This document shows positions 6,300 to 24,997 of a DNA stretch of 64,000 nt, one piece after another. Every line of letters starts with the position of its first letter. The stretch's first letter is position 1. Source of the DNA: Thermosipho africanus Ob7 (lineage in GTDB: Bacteria > Thermotogota > Thermotogae > Thermotogales > Fervidobacteriaceae); contig NZ_NKRG01000001.1 in NCBI RefSeq assembly GCF_003351105.1, forward strand, positions 310,001 through 374,000, in the 5' to 3' direction. Both the position numbers and the translations under genes were made by a program. The notes under the pieces are model-generated. The model saw only the letters and a program-made list of their open reading frames with translations. It ran no database searches and had not been told where the DNA came from.

Positions 6300-8621
6300 A
6301 TGTATATTCCATTGTTAATTGAAGACTTTTTAGATGAAATATTGAATATAAAAGATCACAAAGCGTTAATTGAATATGTGGAGGATAATTTTGAAAAAAT
6401 AGATGATCCTTTAAAAGAAGATCCTGAAGTTTTCAAAAGACTTCAGGAATTTTATACATACATTGTTGAAATGAAAAATCTTCCAGAAAAAAGGATTCAA
6501 AAGAGATTGAGTTATATTCCAGGAATGGTTAAAAGATTTAAGTTGATGCATTTGGTTTATAAAGTTGAAAAATCTTCTGATTTAAAACCACTTGATACAC
6601 CTATAAAGTATGTTAAGGGAATAGGTCCAAAAAGAGCTCAAAAATTTTTAAAGCTAAATGTGAATAATGTTGAGCAACTTTTAAACTTTTTCCCAAGAGA
6701 CTATGAAGATAGAAGAAGAATTATTCCTATTCCTTTGCTTCGTGAAGATGATAAAGTTGTTACAACAGGAAAATTAACCGGGGTTGAAAAAATAAAAAAA
6801 GGTAATTTAACTATTGTTAGTGCTGTTTTATCCGATGGAATGTACCAAATTCTTTTAAAATGGTTTAATCAAGACTTTATGGAGGGAATATTAAAAGGCC
6901 TTTTGAGAAAGAAACTATATGTATTTGGTACGGTTAAAAAAGGATTTTATGGAAGTTTGGAGATTCACAATCCAGAAATTGAGCTTTTTAATGAGAGTAA
7001 AAGAGAGATTTTTCCAATTTATCCGTTAACTGAAGGATTAAATCAAAATACTGTAAGAAGAATTATAAGTGAAAATATTTATAATATTTACAATTTCAAG
7101 GAGCATTTACCTGATGATCTAATTTCAAAGAGAGACTTATTAGATGTTTACCAAGCTTATACTGGAATGCATTTTCCAAGGAGTAATTTTCATAAAAAAG
7201 CGGCAAGGTATAGACTTGCATATGAAGAAATTTTATATCTTCAAGTTGCATTTTTACTGTCTAAAAAAGAAAATGAAAAAATAGGTGGAATATCTAAAAA
7301 ATTTAATGGAAAATATTCAACAGAGCTTATAAATTCTCTTTCTTTTGAGTTGACAAATGCTCAAAAGAAAGCATACGAAGAAATTAAAAATGATTTAAAA
7401 TCGGATAAACCAATGAATAGATTACTCCAGGGAGATGTTGGTTCTGGAAAAACTATTGTTTCAGAACTAGCAATGCTTGATAACTATGAAGCAGGTTTTC
7501 AATCAGCGGTTATGGTACCAACTTCAATTCTTGCTATTCAAAACTTTAAAAAGATTTATGATCATTTTTCAAGATTTGGAATAAAGGTTGCGCTTTTAAT
7601 TGGAGCAACTTCAAATTCTGAAAAAGAACGTATAAAACAAAGATTAAAAGATGGTGATATTGACGTTGTAGTTGGAACACATGCCTTAATTCAAGAGGAT
7701 GTTCATTTTAAGAATTTAGGTTTGGTTGTAATAGATGAGCAACATAGATTTGGTGTTGAGCAAAGAAAGGAACTTATCAGTAAAGGAAAATTGGTAGATA
7801 CGTTGGTTATGACAGCGACACCTATTCCTAGAACACTTTCTCTTTCATTGTATGGTGACTTAGATGTGTCGATTATTGATGAAATGCCAAAAGGGAGAAA
7901 ACCAATAAAGACATTCGTTGTTCACCAATCAAAAATTGAAGAAGTGTATAAATTTGTAATAAGTGAAGTGGAGAATGGTGGACAAGCATATATTGTCTAT
8001 CCGTTGATAGATGAATCAGAAAAATTAGCAGTTAAATCTGCTACTTCAATGTATGAGGTTCTTACAAAAGAGTATTTTCCTGATATTCCTGTGGGACTTA
8101 TTCATGGTAAAATGAGTGACTCAGAAAAAGATGATATAATGTACAAATTTGCATCTGGAGAGATTAAAATACTTGTTTCTACAAGCGTTATTGAAGTTGG
8201 AATTGATGTTCCACAAGCTACAGTAATAGTAATTGAAAATGCAGAACGTTTTGGACTTGCTCAGCTTCATCAGCTAAGGGGAAGAGTAGGAAGGGGAAAC
8301 AAACAGTCGTATTGTTATTTAACAGTTGGAAATGTTTCAAGGGAAGCCTTTGAAAGGCTAAATTTCTTCGCATCAACGAATGATGGATTTAAAATTTCAG
8401 AATTTGATTTAAAACTAAGAGGTCCTGGCGAATTTTTGGGAGTAAGACAGCATGGACTTCCAGAATTTAAAGTTGCAGATATCATAAATGATATTGGCAT
8501 AATAATGGTGGCGCGGGAAGATGCAAAATACATTATTGAAAATGAAGAAAAATATAGAGATTTAATTAGTTATGTCAAAGATTTATATAAAGAACGATTG
8601 AAATTGTTAGATGTTGGTTAA
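6300..8621 (+). CDS. recG: ATP-dependent DNA helicase RecG
   Basis: Remodels stalled forks and Holliday junctions. The 773-residue protein has an extra N-terminal domain (about 1-90), as in the T. maritima enzyme. The wedge/OB domain follows, with YVKGIGPKRAQ near 100. The helicase motifs are GDVGSGKT (I), DEQHRFG (II), TATPIPRT (III) and QLRGRVGRG (VI). A 9-bp hairpin with a 9-base loop lies at 6422-6448 inside the early coding region. The stop lies before the likely TTG start of the radical-SAM gene, which may be translationally coupled. Confidence 0.96.
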   Translation: MYIPLLIEDFLDEILNIKDHKALIEYVEDNFEKIDDPLKEDPEVFKRLQEFYTYIVEMKNLPEKRIQKRLSYIPGMVKRFKLMHLVYKVEKSSDLKPLDTPIKYVKGIGPKRAQKFLKLNVNNVEQLLNFFPRDYEDRRRIIPIPLLREDDKVVTTGKLTGVEKIKKGNLTIVSAVLSDGMYQILLKWFNQDFMEGILKGLLRKKLYVFGTVKKGFYGSLEIHNPEIELFNESKREIFPIYPLTEGLNQNTVRRIISENIYNIYNFKEHLPDDLISKRDLLDVYQAYTGMHFPRSNFHKKAARYRLAYEEILYLQVAFLLSKKENEKIGGISKKFNGKYSTELINSLSFELTNAQKKAYEEIKNDLKSDKPMNRLLQGDVGSGKTIVSELAMLDNYEAGFQSAVMVPTSILAIQNFKKIYDHFSRFGIKVALLIGATSNSEKERIKQRLKDGDIDVVVGTHALIQEDVHFKNLGLVVIDEQHRFGVEQRKELISKGKLVDTLVMTATPIPRTLSLSLYGDLDVSIIDEMPKGRKPIKTFVVHQSKIEEVYKFVISEVENGGQAYIVYPLIDESEKLAVKSATSMYEVLTKEYFPDIPVGLIHGKMSDSEKDDIMYKFASGEIKILVSTSVIEVGIDVPQATVIVIENAERFGLAQLHQLRGRVGRGNKQSYCYLTVGNVSREAFERLNFFASTNDGFKISEFDLKLRGPGEFLGVRQHGLPEFKVADIINDIGIIMVAREDAKYIIENEEKYRDLISYVKDLYKERLKLLDVG

Positions 8622-8634
8622 ACGAGGTGATAAT

Positions 8635-9528
8635 TTGGTTTTAAGAGCTTCCTATGGAACTTTATCATTGCTTGGGCTTGTGAAAAATAGCAAAATTAAA
8701 ATGGATACAGCTTATTTTATGCTTGATGGTCGCTGTATGTTTAATTGTGCATTTTGTGCACACGCAAGAGATGCAAGAACGGAAAATAAATTTCTTTCAA
8801 GAATAGTCTGGAAAGAAATTAGTGTTGATATGATTGAAAAACTTGATGTAAAAAGAATATGCCTTCAGGTTGTAAGCTATAAAGGTTATAAGGAAGATCT
8901 TGAAAATTTACTTTTAAAGCTAAATGGAAAGAAAGTTTCAGTTTCAGTAAGAGCTCTTTCGATGAAAGAAATAGATAGGTATTTTGAACTTGGAGCAGAT
9001 GCAATAGGTTTGTCATTTGATGTTGTAAACAAAGAATTATTTGAAAAAATACGAGGTGGAAAGTTTGAAAATACACTTGAATTAATTAAAAATGCAGCAA
9101 AAAAATATCCAGGGCATATTACTACTCATGTTATAGTAGGACTAGGTGAGACTGATAAAGAACTTATAGAATTTTTTTACATGATGAAAGAACTAAACGT
9201 ATTAGTTGCCCTTTTTTCTTTTACTCCAATTAAAGGAACAGCTTTTGAAAATTTACCTTCACCAAGTATGGAAAGATACAGAAAAATTCAGTTGGCAAGG
9301 TATTTAATATTTGAAGAAGATGTTCCAAAAGATGTATTTGTTTTCAATAAAGAGCGGTTGGAAAAAATTAATTATCCTTTTAAGAAAGGAATTGGAAAGG
9401 CATTTTTAACCTCAGGTTGTAGTCATTGTACAAGGCCGTATTATAACGAAAAACCTTCAAAAGAGCCTTACAATTATTTTGAATATGCTAACAATCTTGA
9501 AGAAATAGCAAAGAAGGTGCTTGAATGA
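8635..9528 (+). CDS. radical SAM protein, BioB-like barrel, first gene of a four-gene cluster
   Basis: About 297 residues. The [4Fe-4S]/SAM motif CMFNCAFC puts cysteines at 34, 38 and 41. The TIM-barrel segments include a GLGETDKE SAM-contact stretch. A second pair in SGCSHCTRPYYNE (cysteines 262 and 265) could bind an auxiliary cluster or metal. The start is taken as TTG 8635 because GAGGTGA lies just upstream; an in-frame ATG at 8611 overlaps recG but has no ribosome site. It overlaps the isochorismatase-like gene by 4 bases. It resembles the biotin synthase and lipoyl-type radical SAM branch, but no biotin or lipoate gene is nearby. The substrate is unknown. Confidence 0.8.
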   Translation: MVLRASYGTLSLLGLVKNSKIKMDTAYFMLDGRCMFNCAFCAHARDARTENKFLSRIVWKEISVDMIEKLDVKRICLQVVSYKGYKEDLENLLLKLNGKKVSVSVRALSMKEIDRYFELGADAIGLSFDVVNKELFEKIRGGKFENTLELIKNAAKKYPGHITTHVIVGLGETDKELIEFFYMMKELNVLVALFSFTPIKGTAFENLPSPSMERYRKIQLARYLIFEEDVPKDVFVFNKERLEKINYPFKKGIGKAFLTSGCSHCTRPYYNEKPSKEPYNYFEYANNLEEIAKKVLE

Positions 9529-10091
9529 ATTTTTATAAAGAAAGAAAAAAGCATCCACTTGTTCTAAATGTGCCTGCATTGTTAATTGTTGATGTTCAAA
9601 GCTATTTTACTGATAGAGAAAGTTCTGCATATTTAGATGGGATTGAAAATATATATGAAAATATAAAAAAACTTTCAGAAAGATTTTTGCAAAAAGGATA
9701 CCCTGTGATATCAACAATACACAAAGGTGGAGCTTTACAAATGCAGAGATGGTGGGGTAATAAAGTGGATGAAAAGTGGGCAAAACCTTATTTTAAGTCG
9801 AACGAATATGTGTATATAATAAAAGATACTTATGATGCTTTTTATAATACGTATCTTGAAAAAGTACTAAGGCTAAAAAATGTAACTGATATTATAATTA
9901 CCGGAGTTATGACACACTTGTGTTGTGAGACAACTGCAAGAAGTGGTTTTGTAAGAAATTTTAATGTGGTAATGGTTGAAGATGCGCTTTGGGATAAAGA
10001 TGAATTTTATCATTTTTTGTCCTTAAAATCTTTGGCACACGGTTTTGCACATATTTGTAAAACGGAGGAAGTATTGTGCAAGTTGGAATAA
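9525..10091 (+). CDS. isochorismatase-like cysteine hydrolase
   Basis: A 188-residue member of the isochorismatase/nicotinamidase superfamily. The triad is visible: Asp in LLIVDVQ near 24, Lys in IIKDTYDAF near 100, and the nucleophile Cys in THLCCETTAR near 135. Members hydrolyse amides, carbamates or vinyl ethers, so pyrazinamidase, ureidoacrylate or N-carbamoyl substrates are all possible. It overlaps both neighbours by a few bases, which indicates a tight operon with two radical SAM genes and a flavoprotein. Confidence 0.85.
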   Translation: MNFYKERKKHPLVLNVPALLIVDVQSYFTDRESSAYLDGIENIYENIKKLSERFLQKGYPVISTIHKGGALQMQRWWGNKVDEKWAKPYFKSNEYVYIIKDTYDAFYNTYLEKVLRLKNVTDIIITGVMTHLCCETTARSGFVRNFNVVMVEDALWDKDEFYHFLSLKSLAHGFAHICKTEEVLCKLE

Positions 10092-10864
10092 TTGGAGCGG
10101 GTCCTGCTGGAATTTCAGCTGCTGTTTTTTTGAAAAGATATGGAATAGATGTAGCATTGTTTGAAAAGAAAAGAATTGGTGGACTTATAAATAACGCATG
10201 GAGAGTTGAAAATATTCCATTTTTTCAGCCGTTACCTGGTAAAAAAATTGTTGAGAATATGAAATCATATTTGGAGCTTTATAACGTTAATATAATATTT
10301 GAAGAAGTGAAAGAGGTATACGATAAAAGGATTATAACTGAAAAAGATACGTATTATTTTGATTATATAATTGTTGCATCAGGAACGGTTCCAAACAGAA
10401 TTGAGGAATTAGAAGGAAAAAGAGTATACTACGAATTTTTGGATTTACCGGATAATATTGAATCAGTTGCAATATATGGTGCGGGCGATGTAGCTTTTGA
10501 TGGAGCAATACAAGCAAAAATTTTAAGGAAAAATGTTCATATTTTTAATAGATCAAATAGGATAAAAGCTCTTTCACGACTTGTTAATATTGCAAGTAGT
10601 TTGGGTGTAATATATCATGAAAGTGAGCCAATAAAAATCGTAGAAAACAAAGAAAATTATGTAATAATACATACAAAAAAGTCTGTTTACAAATTTGATG
10701 CTTTACTACTTGCAACAGGCAGAAAAGTAGATTTATCATTTTTAAAAACTGATAAAGTATTTTTAATAGGTGATGTTGCTCATCCAAATTTTAGACAGGC
10801 TTCGATAGCCATGGGTGATGGTATAAAAATTGCAATGAAAATCATCGGGGAGGGAAAGGTGTGA
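10076..10864 (+). CDS. FAD/NAD(P)-binding oxidoreductase, thioredoxin-reductase-like
   Basis: 262 residues from a GTG start with a GGAGGAAG site. Two dinucleotide-binding motifs are present: GAGPAGISAA (about residue 7, FAD) and YGAGDVAFDGA (about 138, NAD(P)H). The FAD-closing GDVAHP stretch lies near the C-terminus. It has the shape of a thioredoxin or ferredoxin-NADP reductase but no CxxC redox pair, so it probably passes electrons to a protein partner or substrate. In this operon it could reduce a radical SAM cluster. The start overlaps the hydrolase by 16 bases and the end overlaps the next gene by 4. Confidence 0.85.
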   Translation: MQVGIIGAGPAGISAAVFLKRYGIDVALFEKKRIGGLINNAWRVENIPFFQPLPGKKIVENMKSYLELYNVNIIFEEVKEVYDKRIITEKDTYYFDYIIVASGTVPNRIEELEGKRVYYEFLDLPDNIESVAIYGAGDVAFDGAIQAKILRKNVHIFNRSNRIKALSRLVNIASSLGVIYHESEPIKIVENKENYVIIHTKKSVYKFDALLLATGRKVDLSFLKTDKVFLIGDVAHPNFRQASIAMGDGIKIAMKIIGEGKV

Positions 10865-11796
10865 AAATTTTAGAAAAATTTGGAAAAGAAGAAATAGCAT
10901 ATGTTTATTTAGGAGAAACTTCAAGAGGAAATTTGGTTGAATTTGTTGAATCTATTCAACCACCTATTCCGAGAGATGAAAAATGGGTTTTAATTGTCTC
11001 AACGTTGAATGGTTGCCCAGTGCAATGTATGATGTGCGATGCAGGAGGTTTTTATAAAGGAAAGCTTACAAAAGAAGAGATTTTAGAACAAATTCTATAC
11101 CTTGTAAATACAAGGTATAGTAAAAAAGTCCCAGTTAAAAAATTTAAAATACAATTTGCACGTATGGGAGAACCGGCTTTAAATAATGAAGTTTTAGAAG
11201 TTTTAAAAGAACTGCCTGAAATTTTGGACGCACCTGGCCTCTTACCATCAATTTCAACAGTTGCTCCAATTGGGACCGATGATTTTTTTGAAGAATTGTA
11301 TGAAATAAAAGAAAAATTTTATAGAAGTAGATTTCAATTACAATTTTCAATACATAGTACTGATGAAAAGCAAAGAGATAAAATAATTCCTATTAAAAAA
11401 TGGAATTTTGAAAAGATAGCATTGTATGGAGAAAAATTTGTTAGAGAAGGAGATAGAAAAGTAACACTTAATTTTGCACTTGCCAAAGAAAATATAGTTG
11501 ATTCTAAAGTTATAAAAAGCTACTTTTCACCGGAAAAATTTTTAATTAAGATTACACCTGTTAACCCGACGTATTCAGCTATTAAAAATGGATTACATTC
11601 TGATATTGATTTAAATAATTTTATGCCAGTTAATCACAAAAATTTTGTAGAGGAATTAAAAGAATATGGTTATGATGTATTAATCAGTATAGGAGAGTTG
11701 GAGGAAAATAATATAGGGAGTAATTGTGGGCAATATGTTCAAAAACATTTATTGGAAAAACAAAAGATTGAGAATGCATATAATTTTGTAAAATAA
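10861..11796 (+). CDS. radical SAM protein of the RlmN/Cfr-like family, lacking one catalytic cysteine
   Basis: 311 residues. The cluster motif CPVQCMMC (52, 56, 59), MGEPALN, SIHST, TPVNPT and a C-terminal NCGQY (Cys289) match RlmN/Cfr, which methylate A2503 of 23S rRNA through a methyl-cysteine. The CGQ cysteine corresponds to E. coli RlmN Cys355. The residue seven before the first cluster cysteine, Cys118 in RlmN, is Ile45 here. The N-terminal RlmN domain is also missing. A canonical rRNA methylation role is therefore unlikely. The GTG start overlaps the flavoprotein stop, and a GGGAGGGAAAGG site precedes it. It closes the four-gene cluster. Confidence 0.75.
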   Translation: MKILEKFGKEEIAYVYLGETSRGNLVEFVESIQPPIPRDEKWVLIVSTLNGCPVQCMMCDAGGFYKGKLTKEEILEQILYLVNTRYSKKVPVKKFKIQFARMGEPALNNEVLEVLKELPEILDAPGLLPSISTVAPIGTDDFFEELYEIKEKFYRSRFQLQFSIHSTDEKQRDKIIPIKKWNFEKIALYGEKFVREGDRKVTLNFALAKENIVDSKVIKSYFSPEKFLIKITPVNPTYSAIKNGLHSDIDLNNFMPVNHKNFVEELKEYGYDVLISIGELEENNIGSNCGQYVQKHLLEKQKIENAYNFVK

Positions 11797-11836: not shown

Positions 11837-12523
11837 ATGGGAGAAAATAACATTTTAATGTGGGTAGGAGTAGGTGTATTAGCAGTTGCTTTAGTTGTTG
11901 GTGTAGTTTTCCTTATTATGCCTAAAGATCAGTATATTACAGCACAAGGAATTAAGATTTGGAAACTTCCAAAAGAAGCAGAAAATGTCCAGATTAATTA
12001 TTCTCAAGAGGCAAAAGTAGCTCAGCTTGCAAGAGAAGGAAGGCTTTTCTTATTTGAAGGAGTAAATGTCGGTGGCGGAGTAAACATGACAATTGCTGAA
12101 AATGCTGCAAGAACACAAGCATTAGGAAAAATTGCAGAGTTTTTAAATGCAAAGGTAGAAACCTTCAGAAAAGTTGTTGAAGGACAACTTCAGAGTGTTC
12201 AAACAAATTCCGGAAATGAAGAAAACAATCAACAATTGGTAGAAGCTGCTGTGTCAGCATATAAAGGAATTACCAAGGTTATGGCGGAGGCTATAGTAAG
12301 TGGTGCTTTAAAATATGCAAGTTGGGAAGTAAGAAAAGGAAACGTTGTAGAGCTTCATGTTCTTTATTTCTATGATCCTACAAACTTGCTTTCAATACTT
12401 GAATCACAAGCACTTGTAAGTGATTCTGTGAAAAAATTGGGCAAGCAGGGAGTTGACTTCTTTAAAGCATTAAATTCAGTATTAGATGAAGCATCAAAAG
12501 GAACTCCTCTTGCTGGTGAATAA
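11837..12523 (+). CDS. membrane-anchored protein of unknown function, LPP20-like domain
   Basis: 228 residues. One N-terminal transmembrane helix (about residues 6-28) is followed by an extracytoplasmic domain. Its pattern (an Ala-rich helix beginning MTIAENAARTQALGKIAEFL near 75, then a Gln/Asn linker, then a VELHVLYFY strand near 175) recalls LPP20/FlgT-N type domains; the resemblance is weak. The ribosome site GGGAGGTGAT and a TATAAT at 11811-11816 suggest its own promoter. An intrinsic terminator follows at 12543, so it is probably monocistronic. Confidence 0.7.
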   Translation: MGENNILMWVGVGVLAVALVVGVVFLIMPKDQYITAQGIKIWKLPKEAENVQINYSQEAKVAQLAREGRLFLFEGVNVGGGVNMTIAENAARTQALGKIAEFLNAKVETFRKVVEGQLQSVQTNSGNEENNQQLVEAAVSAYKGITKVMAEAIVSGALKYASWEVRKGNVVELHVLYFYDPTNLLSILESQALVSDSVKKLGKQGVDFFKALNSVLDEASKGTPLAGE

Positions 12524-12542: not shown

Positions 12543-12573
12543 AAAGGGGCTGAATTTTTTCAGCCCCTTTTTT
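12543..12573 (+). terminator. intrinsic terminator after the membrane-anchored protein gene
   Basis: AAAGGGGCTGA pairs with TCAGCCCCTTT across a short T-rich loop, followed by a T run. It separates the anchored-protein gene from threonine aldolase. Confidence 0.9.
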
Positions 12574-24764: not shown

Positions 24765-24842
24765 GGGGACGTGGTGAAGCCTGGTTATCACGCCGGTCTG
24801 TCACACCGGTGGCCGCGGGTTCAAATCCCGTCGTCCCCGCCA
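24765..24842 (+). tRNA. tRNA-Asp (GTC), copy 1
   Basis: A 78-base cloverleaf: acceptor GGGGACG pairing with CGTCCCC, anticodon loop CTGTCAC giving GTC, T-arm GGTTCAAATCC, and an encoded CCA end. Identical to the copy at 24920. Confidence 0.97.
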
Positions 24843-24919: not shown

Positions 24920-24997
24920 GGGGACGTGGTGAAGCCTGGTTATCACGCCGGTCTGTCACACCGGTGGCCGCGGGTTCAAATCCCGTCGTCCCCGCCA
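24920..24997 (+). tRNA. tRNA-Asp (GTC), copy 2
   Basis: A 78-base sequence identical to copy 1, including the encoded CCA. The flanks differ, so the duplication covers the tRNA body only. Confidence 0.97.

Follow-up and report, generated by a model that had tools for sequence, protein, structure and literature searches.

The stretch of DNA analysed here, referred to as the window, is a 64,000-nucleotide part of contig C1 (NZ_NKRG01000001.1) of the 1.93-Mb genome of Thermosipho africanus Ob7, and this study concerns four overlapping genes on its + strand, immediately preceded on the 5' side by recG. Gene A (lipS2, 8635..9528) encodes a radical S-adenosylmethionine (SAM) enzyme matched by the NCBIfam LipS2 model NF053743, and gene B (9525..10091) encodes a 188-amino-acid cysteine hydrolase of the isochorismatase superfamily. 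Gene C (10076..10864) encodes a 262-amino-acid flavoprotein matched by Pfam Pyr_redox_2, with the thioredoxin reductase (TrxR) fold for flavin adenine dinucleotide (FAD) and nicotinamide adenine dinucleotide (phosphate), NAD(P)H, but without the redox CxxC motif, and gene D (10861..11796) encodes a 311-amino-acid RlmN-like radical SAM enzyme which, in alignment to Escherichia coli RlmN, is without the RNA-binding domain. The open reading frame (ORF) of lipS2 opens at an ATG at 8611; the codon equivalent to 8635 is used in relatives and leaves a gap of 13 nt after recG. This agrees with the start given in a first-pass annotation made from the letters of the window, which also called the domains correctly (radical SAM, isochorismatase-like with a D-K-C triad, TrxR-like without CxxC, and RlmN/Cfr-like radical SAM). 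Its report of overlaps of 4-16 bases was confirmed as well, at 4 nt for A/B, 16 nt for B/C and 4 nt for C/D. The overlaps were rejected as evidence in themselves, since 24 of the 52 co-directional neighbouring ORF pairs in the window overlap.

Inheritance of the B-C-D genes and of LipS2

A scan with an alignment of D, using one genome per species, yielded 193 relatives, 80 of which were kept. D has relatives in archaea as well as in many phyla of bacteria, with approximately 55-60% identity between bacterial and archaeal phyla, and the order B-C-D is present in most of the loci long enough to show order, again in many bacterial and archaeal phyla. Within the Thermotogota, 103 genomes were profiled, in which matches to B scored at least 169 bits (next best 120) and matches to C at least 244 bits (next best 184). 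B, C and D occur in the same 44 of these genomes, with two exceptions: in one genome (G096) D survives as fragments that contain stop codons and C as a mere remnant, and another (G007), which is a fragmented genome, has B alone. The joint presence and absence gave a Fisher p of ~1e-27, a value which ignores shared ancestry. Two further observations are free of that flaw: within several genera of mixed content, a genome has either all three genes or none of them, and Fervidobacterium-type genomes have kept B even though it is far removed from C-D. It is the conservation of order across phyla and the joint presence and absence, and not the overlaps, that place the coupling above chance, and B, C and D almost certainly form a real unit. 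D was found in only 2 of 197 Halobacteriota, and its presence in archaea is therefore patchy. Several phyla are split in the tree of D, in which many forks are weak, and horizontal transfer of the gene is likely from this phylogeny.

Several Thermotogota loci of this module have been rearranged. In the decaying locus of G096 (L259), TnpB-like fragments are also present, and the metallo-beta-lactamase-fold gene of the locus is still open. In G059, D is split into two parts ~76 kb apart, encoding residues 1-170 and 168-310 (L260:3520-4059 and L261), each of which lies beside a 429-amino-acid transposase-like ORF; the listed N-termini of the two ORFs are identical, B and C are intact, and the arrangement would fit a break of the gene by recombination between two mobile-element copies. 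In G090 (1,860,725 bp), where the module lies beside the trp operon, a TnpB-like ORF is found on the opposite strand between C and D (L215:5519-6763), at the place where relatives have a metallo-beta-lactamase-fold gene (L217). In the Fervidobacterium-type genomes, genes for a DUF1576 membrane protein and a ~113-amino-acid protein without a Pfam match precede the relocated B (L251-L258), and this trio is kept in several of the genomes. A 2,266-kb record of G068 has two apparently duplicated stretches, near its positions 12 kb and 2,235 kb (L252 and L253), and both carry an identical-scoring copy of B.

Gene A is, by its sequence, an ordinary member of the LipS2 family. It scored 349.9 bits against NF053743, for which the curated cut-off is 270, and its radical SAM cysteines C42/C46/C49 (CX3CX2C) and auxiliary cysteines C84, C270 and C273 are invariant among 12 relatives. 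The auxiliary cysteines correspond to C85, C276 and C279 of Thermococcus kodakarensis LipS2, which are cluster ligands whose loss cripples the enzyme (PMC9585515), and the second CxxC pair remarked on in the first-pass annotation is C270/C273, a part of this auxiliary-cluster motif. That annotation had considered and dismissed a LipS1/LipS2-type lipoyl system on the ground that no lipoate ligase or GcvH is nearby. The dismissal was wrong, because LipS1, an acyl-transfer enzyme and GcvH are all encoded elsewhere in the genome: a LipS1 on another contig (C3:138375-139019; 198 bits, below the NCBIfam cut-off of 230) in which the C-terminal CC and other Cys motifs are present, one 238-amino-acid LplA/LipM-like protein (PF03099) resembling lipoate ligases and octanoyltransferases, and two GcvH genes above the cut-off. 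Neither lipS1 nor the genes for the ligase-like protein and GcvH adjoin lipS2, which lies between recG and an unrelated module. In T. kodakarensis, as here, lipS1 and lipS2 are unlinked, lying >130 genes apart there (PMC9585515, PMC10332631). Together with the product of the distant lipS1, LipS2 is predicted to catalyse the initial C-S bond formation of lipoyl cofactor synthesis; sulfur insertion at C8 of octanoyl-lysine is the activity expected of a LipS2.

The occurrence of LipS1 and LipS2 in the Thermotogota, including some members without a ligase, has already been noted (PMC10332631). LipS2 was detected in 82 of the 103 genomes, and the identification of gene A thereby also brings to light a phylum-wide LipS1/LipS2 lipoate system; 81 genomes have both proteins, 20 have neither, and the one exception each way is a genome of ~80% completeness. 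It was also observed that 45 of the 82 Thermotogota LipS1 matches fall below the curated NCBIfam cut-off and will thus be missed by automatic annotation, and many LipS1 matches reach only to approximately position 250 of the 268 positions of the model.

The first-pass annotation had suggested that the four coupled genes serve one pathway or complex. For B, C and D this held: their order persists across phyla rather than being scattered, and they match no characterised family. For gene A it did not, since A adjoins the others only in close relatives and clusters with a characterised family. We consider it very unlikely that all four genes belong to one pathway or complex, and rejected this explanation because LipS2 and D vary independently. 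Among the 103 genomes, 38 have both, 7 have D only, 44 have LipS2 only and 14 have neither (p 0.33), neither LipS1 nor LipS2 accompanies D in Mesotoga-like genomes, and LipS2 was found in only 4 of the 50 D-carrying genomes that were sampled outside the phylum. What speaks for a single pathway are the overlapping genes in Thermosipho and an independent second neighbourhood on a Thermoplasmatota contig (L158:1631-7413), in which B and D are preceded by LipS2, LplA and LplB, and which we count as a curiosity; the same contig carries two copies of a protein of 137-143 amino acids, and C was not recognised in an open frame there. Another explanation would make C the LipT of the Thermotogota, donating electrons to LipS1/LipS2, with B and D as passengers. 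LipT, an FAD/NAD(P)H oxidoreductase, occurs in bacteria almost only alongside LipS1/S2 (PMC10332631), and C is a TrxR-like flavoprotein adjoining lipS2. By co-occurrence within the Thermotogota, however, C tracks B and D: it is found in the 44 genomes of D and not in the 82 of LipS2, most genomes of the phylum with LipS1/S2 are without C, and 7 genomes with C have no detected LipS2, which makes this explanation very unlikely. Gene A is not part of the B-C-D system, and our best account as a whole, somewhat more probable than not, is that the stretch holds two systems, LipS2 and the pathway proposed below for B-C-D, whose adjacency is an arrangement of the Thermosipho lineage. The two adjoin each other only in Thermosipho-like genera, and even in one Thermosipho-like genome (G082) they are ~114 kb apart.

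The proteins encoded by B, C and D

B is matched by Pfam PF00857 above the cut-off (E 1e-35), and its triad D23-K100-C133 is invariant among 55 homologues. The AlphaFold2 model of B, with a mean predicted local distance difference test (pLDDT) score of 93.3, resembles maleamate amidase, N-carbamoylsarcosine amidohydrolase, isochorismatase and RutB, and these nearest folds could not be separated because all of them gave VIA Z scores of 25-28. Fold and triad are thus shared with the isochorismatase-superfamily hydrolases (EntB/PhzD, NicF, RutB, BiuH and N-carbamoylsarcosine amidohydrolase), whereas B scored far below the cut-off of every named family. For instance, it reached 17.8 bits against the nicotinamidase model NF008623, whose cut-off is 174, and the nicotinamidase D-x-H metal site was not seen in B, which has T64-x-H66 at the site as assigned by eye. 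In C, the FAD- and NAD(P)H-binding fold of thioredoxin reductase is present, but the redox CxxC of the NADPH domain is absent; CAACDG of the TrxR of the same genome is replaced by YYEFLD, and the motif has been lost across the C family. C scored 94 bits against the thioredoxin reductase model (cut-off 343), and a role as plain thioredoxin reductase was rejected, given the lack of CxxC and the presence of a separate TrxR in the genome.

The AlphaFold2 model of D (pLDDT 95.3) is closest to E. coli RlmN (VIA Z 25.3; 2.9 Å over 264 residues), followed by Cfr (Z 18.3) and the next fold outside RlmN/Cfr (Z 14.3). In the structure alignment, residue 1 of D falls on residue 80 of RlmN, so that the N-terminal helical RNA-binding domain (RlmN 1-79) is absent. 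D has the radical SAM cluster cysteines C52/C56/C59 (CX3CX2C) and shares further positions with the RlmN/Cfr class A methylases: in an alignment to E. coli RlmN, for which the residue numbers were confirmed, C289 corresponds to Cys355, E27 to Glu105, H165 to His235 and N235 to Asn312. RlmN positions Glu105 for the deprotonation of Cys355, which is methylated by SAM; a methylene radical, generated with a second SAM, then attacks the adenine; and Cys118 serves as the base or resolving residue, without which the C118A enzyme stalls as a covalent adduct (PMC9692996). Both C289, at the position of the methyl carrier, and E27 are kept in all 99 D sequences. In contrast, Cys118 (Cys105 in Cfr) has no counterpart, I45 standing at its position, and only four cysteine columns are invariant in the 99 sequences. 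D differs from the methylases also in the invariant polar residues K96, Q98, R101, Q161, N204 and K230 of its barrel, at positions that in RlmN are occupied mainly by small or non-polar residues; K96, Q98, Q161, N204 and K230 point into the barrel by strand parity. Against the RlmN/Cfr family model D scored 64 bits, and its relatives in other phyla 44-48 bits, with a cut-off of 290. D was rejected as the RlmN of the genome, which has a separate, normal RlmN. The combination of these known superfamilies, and the active site of D, match no named family.

A possible B-C-D pathway and its alternatives

We propose, tentatively and with somewhat less than even confidence, that B, C and D make up a small-molecule pathway, with D adding a one-carbon unit, C providing electrons from NAD(P)H and B carrying out a hydrolysis. 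A methyl group would be transferred from SAM onto C289, with E27 generating the thiolate in the role that Glu105 has in RlmN, and a second SAM would give rise to a methylene radical, which would add to an sp2 carbon. The substrate of D would be a small, polar, probably anionic metabolite and not RNA; this we infer because the first half of the RlmN machinery is kept, Cys118 is lost and the barrel is more polar. Since Cys118 is missing, the adduct would be released by a route other than that of RlmN, either by another base or by reduction, and C is the candidate reductant, which could pass electrons from NAD(P)H to the cluster of D or to the adduct or thiyl radical. Before or after the action of D, B could hydrolyse the substrate or the product at an amide, carbamoyl (C-N) or enol-ether bond. 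With a little more reserve, we also think it possible that this is an undescribed small-molecule pathway of bacteria and archaea, and that D represents a new subfamily of RlmN-type radical SAM methyl or methylene transferases acting on free metabolites, in which a dedicated flavoprotein takes on the step of the missing resolving cysteine. A description of the B-C-D trio, under the presumed Thermotoga maritima locus numbers or otherwise, or of RlmN-like small-molecule enzymes, was not found in the open-access PMC literature, which is weak evidence of absence.

Several points weigh against the proposed pathway. D may not methylate at all, because by analogy with RlmN, in which the C118A variant stalls, a class A cycle could not be closed without Cys118. 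The donation of electrons from C to D is likewise suggested by analogy, and the assignment to small molecules by the missing domain and the alignment. In addition, some Melainabacteria-type loci, as far as the view of the locus extends, have D without adjacent B and C, and the neighbours of the module differ between lineages, so that gene context names no substrate; recurrent context was rejected as a guide to the substrate for the same reason.

An alternative which we regard as unlikely is a role of B-C-D in the catabolism of a nitrogenous compound, with D performing non-methylating radical chemistry and C289 serving as a radical relay. In its favour are the patchy distribution and certain neighbours: in a few candidate-phylum loci of Krumholzibacteria/Latescibacteria type, genes for an MttB-like methyltransferase and a corrinoid protein lie directly upstream of B-C-D, together with homocysteine methyltransferase and activation-domain-like genes, and in Kosmotogaceae M20 peptidase, ornithine carbamoyltransferase (OTCase)-like and amidohydrolase genes lie downstream. 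These contexts are lineage-specific and most loci show neither, and the presence of E27 and C289 in every D sequence is what methyl-cysteine chemistry would predict. It is rather improbable that D methylates a new RNA target, with B and C in an accessory role or unrelated to it. The RlmN fold and the catalytic residues, including the equivalence of E27 and E105, would fit such an enzyme, but D has neither the N-terminal domain nor Cys118, is strictly co-inherited with a small-molecule hydrolase and a flavoprotein, and occurs in a genome that already has an ordinary RlmN. Since the chemistry of RlmN leads to 2-methyladenine in RNA, B-C-D might also be imagined to make 2-methyladenine as a cobamide lower ligand. 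No test favoured this idea, and CobS was not associated with B-C-D in the 103 genomes (18 with both, 26 with B-C-D only, 24 with CobS only and 35 with neither; p 1.0). This independence, with 26 B-C-D genomes having no CobS, makes such a role extremely improbable.

The conservation of B-C-D between phyla points to a definite biochemical function in anaerobes, and the small-molecule pathway proposed above is now open to testing; a set of homologues exists in Thermotoga, a cultivated organism. D, which keeps half of the catalytic pair of RlmN, offers a test of methyl-cysteine radical chemistry without the second cysteine.

The transcript and other features of the window

Downstream of D, a gene at 11837-12523 encodes a 228-amino-acid protein without a Pfam match. 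It is followed on the + strand by a likely intrinsic terminator (12543..12570), which consists of a 12-bp perfect stem and a T-rich tail and is assigned by match to the consensus; this hairpin is the probable end of the transcript carrying lipS2-B-C-D. The window also contains two tandem tRNA-Asp(gtc) genes, at 24765-24842 and 24920-24997.

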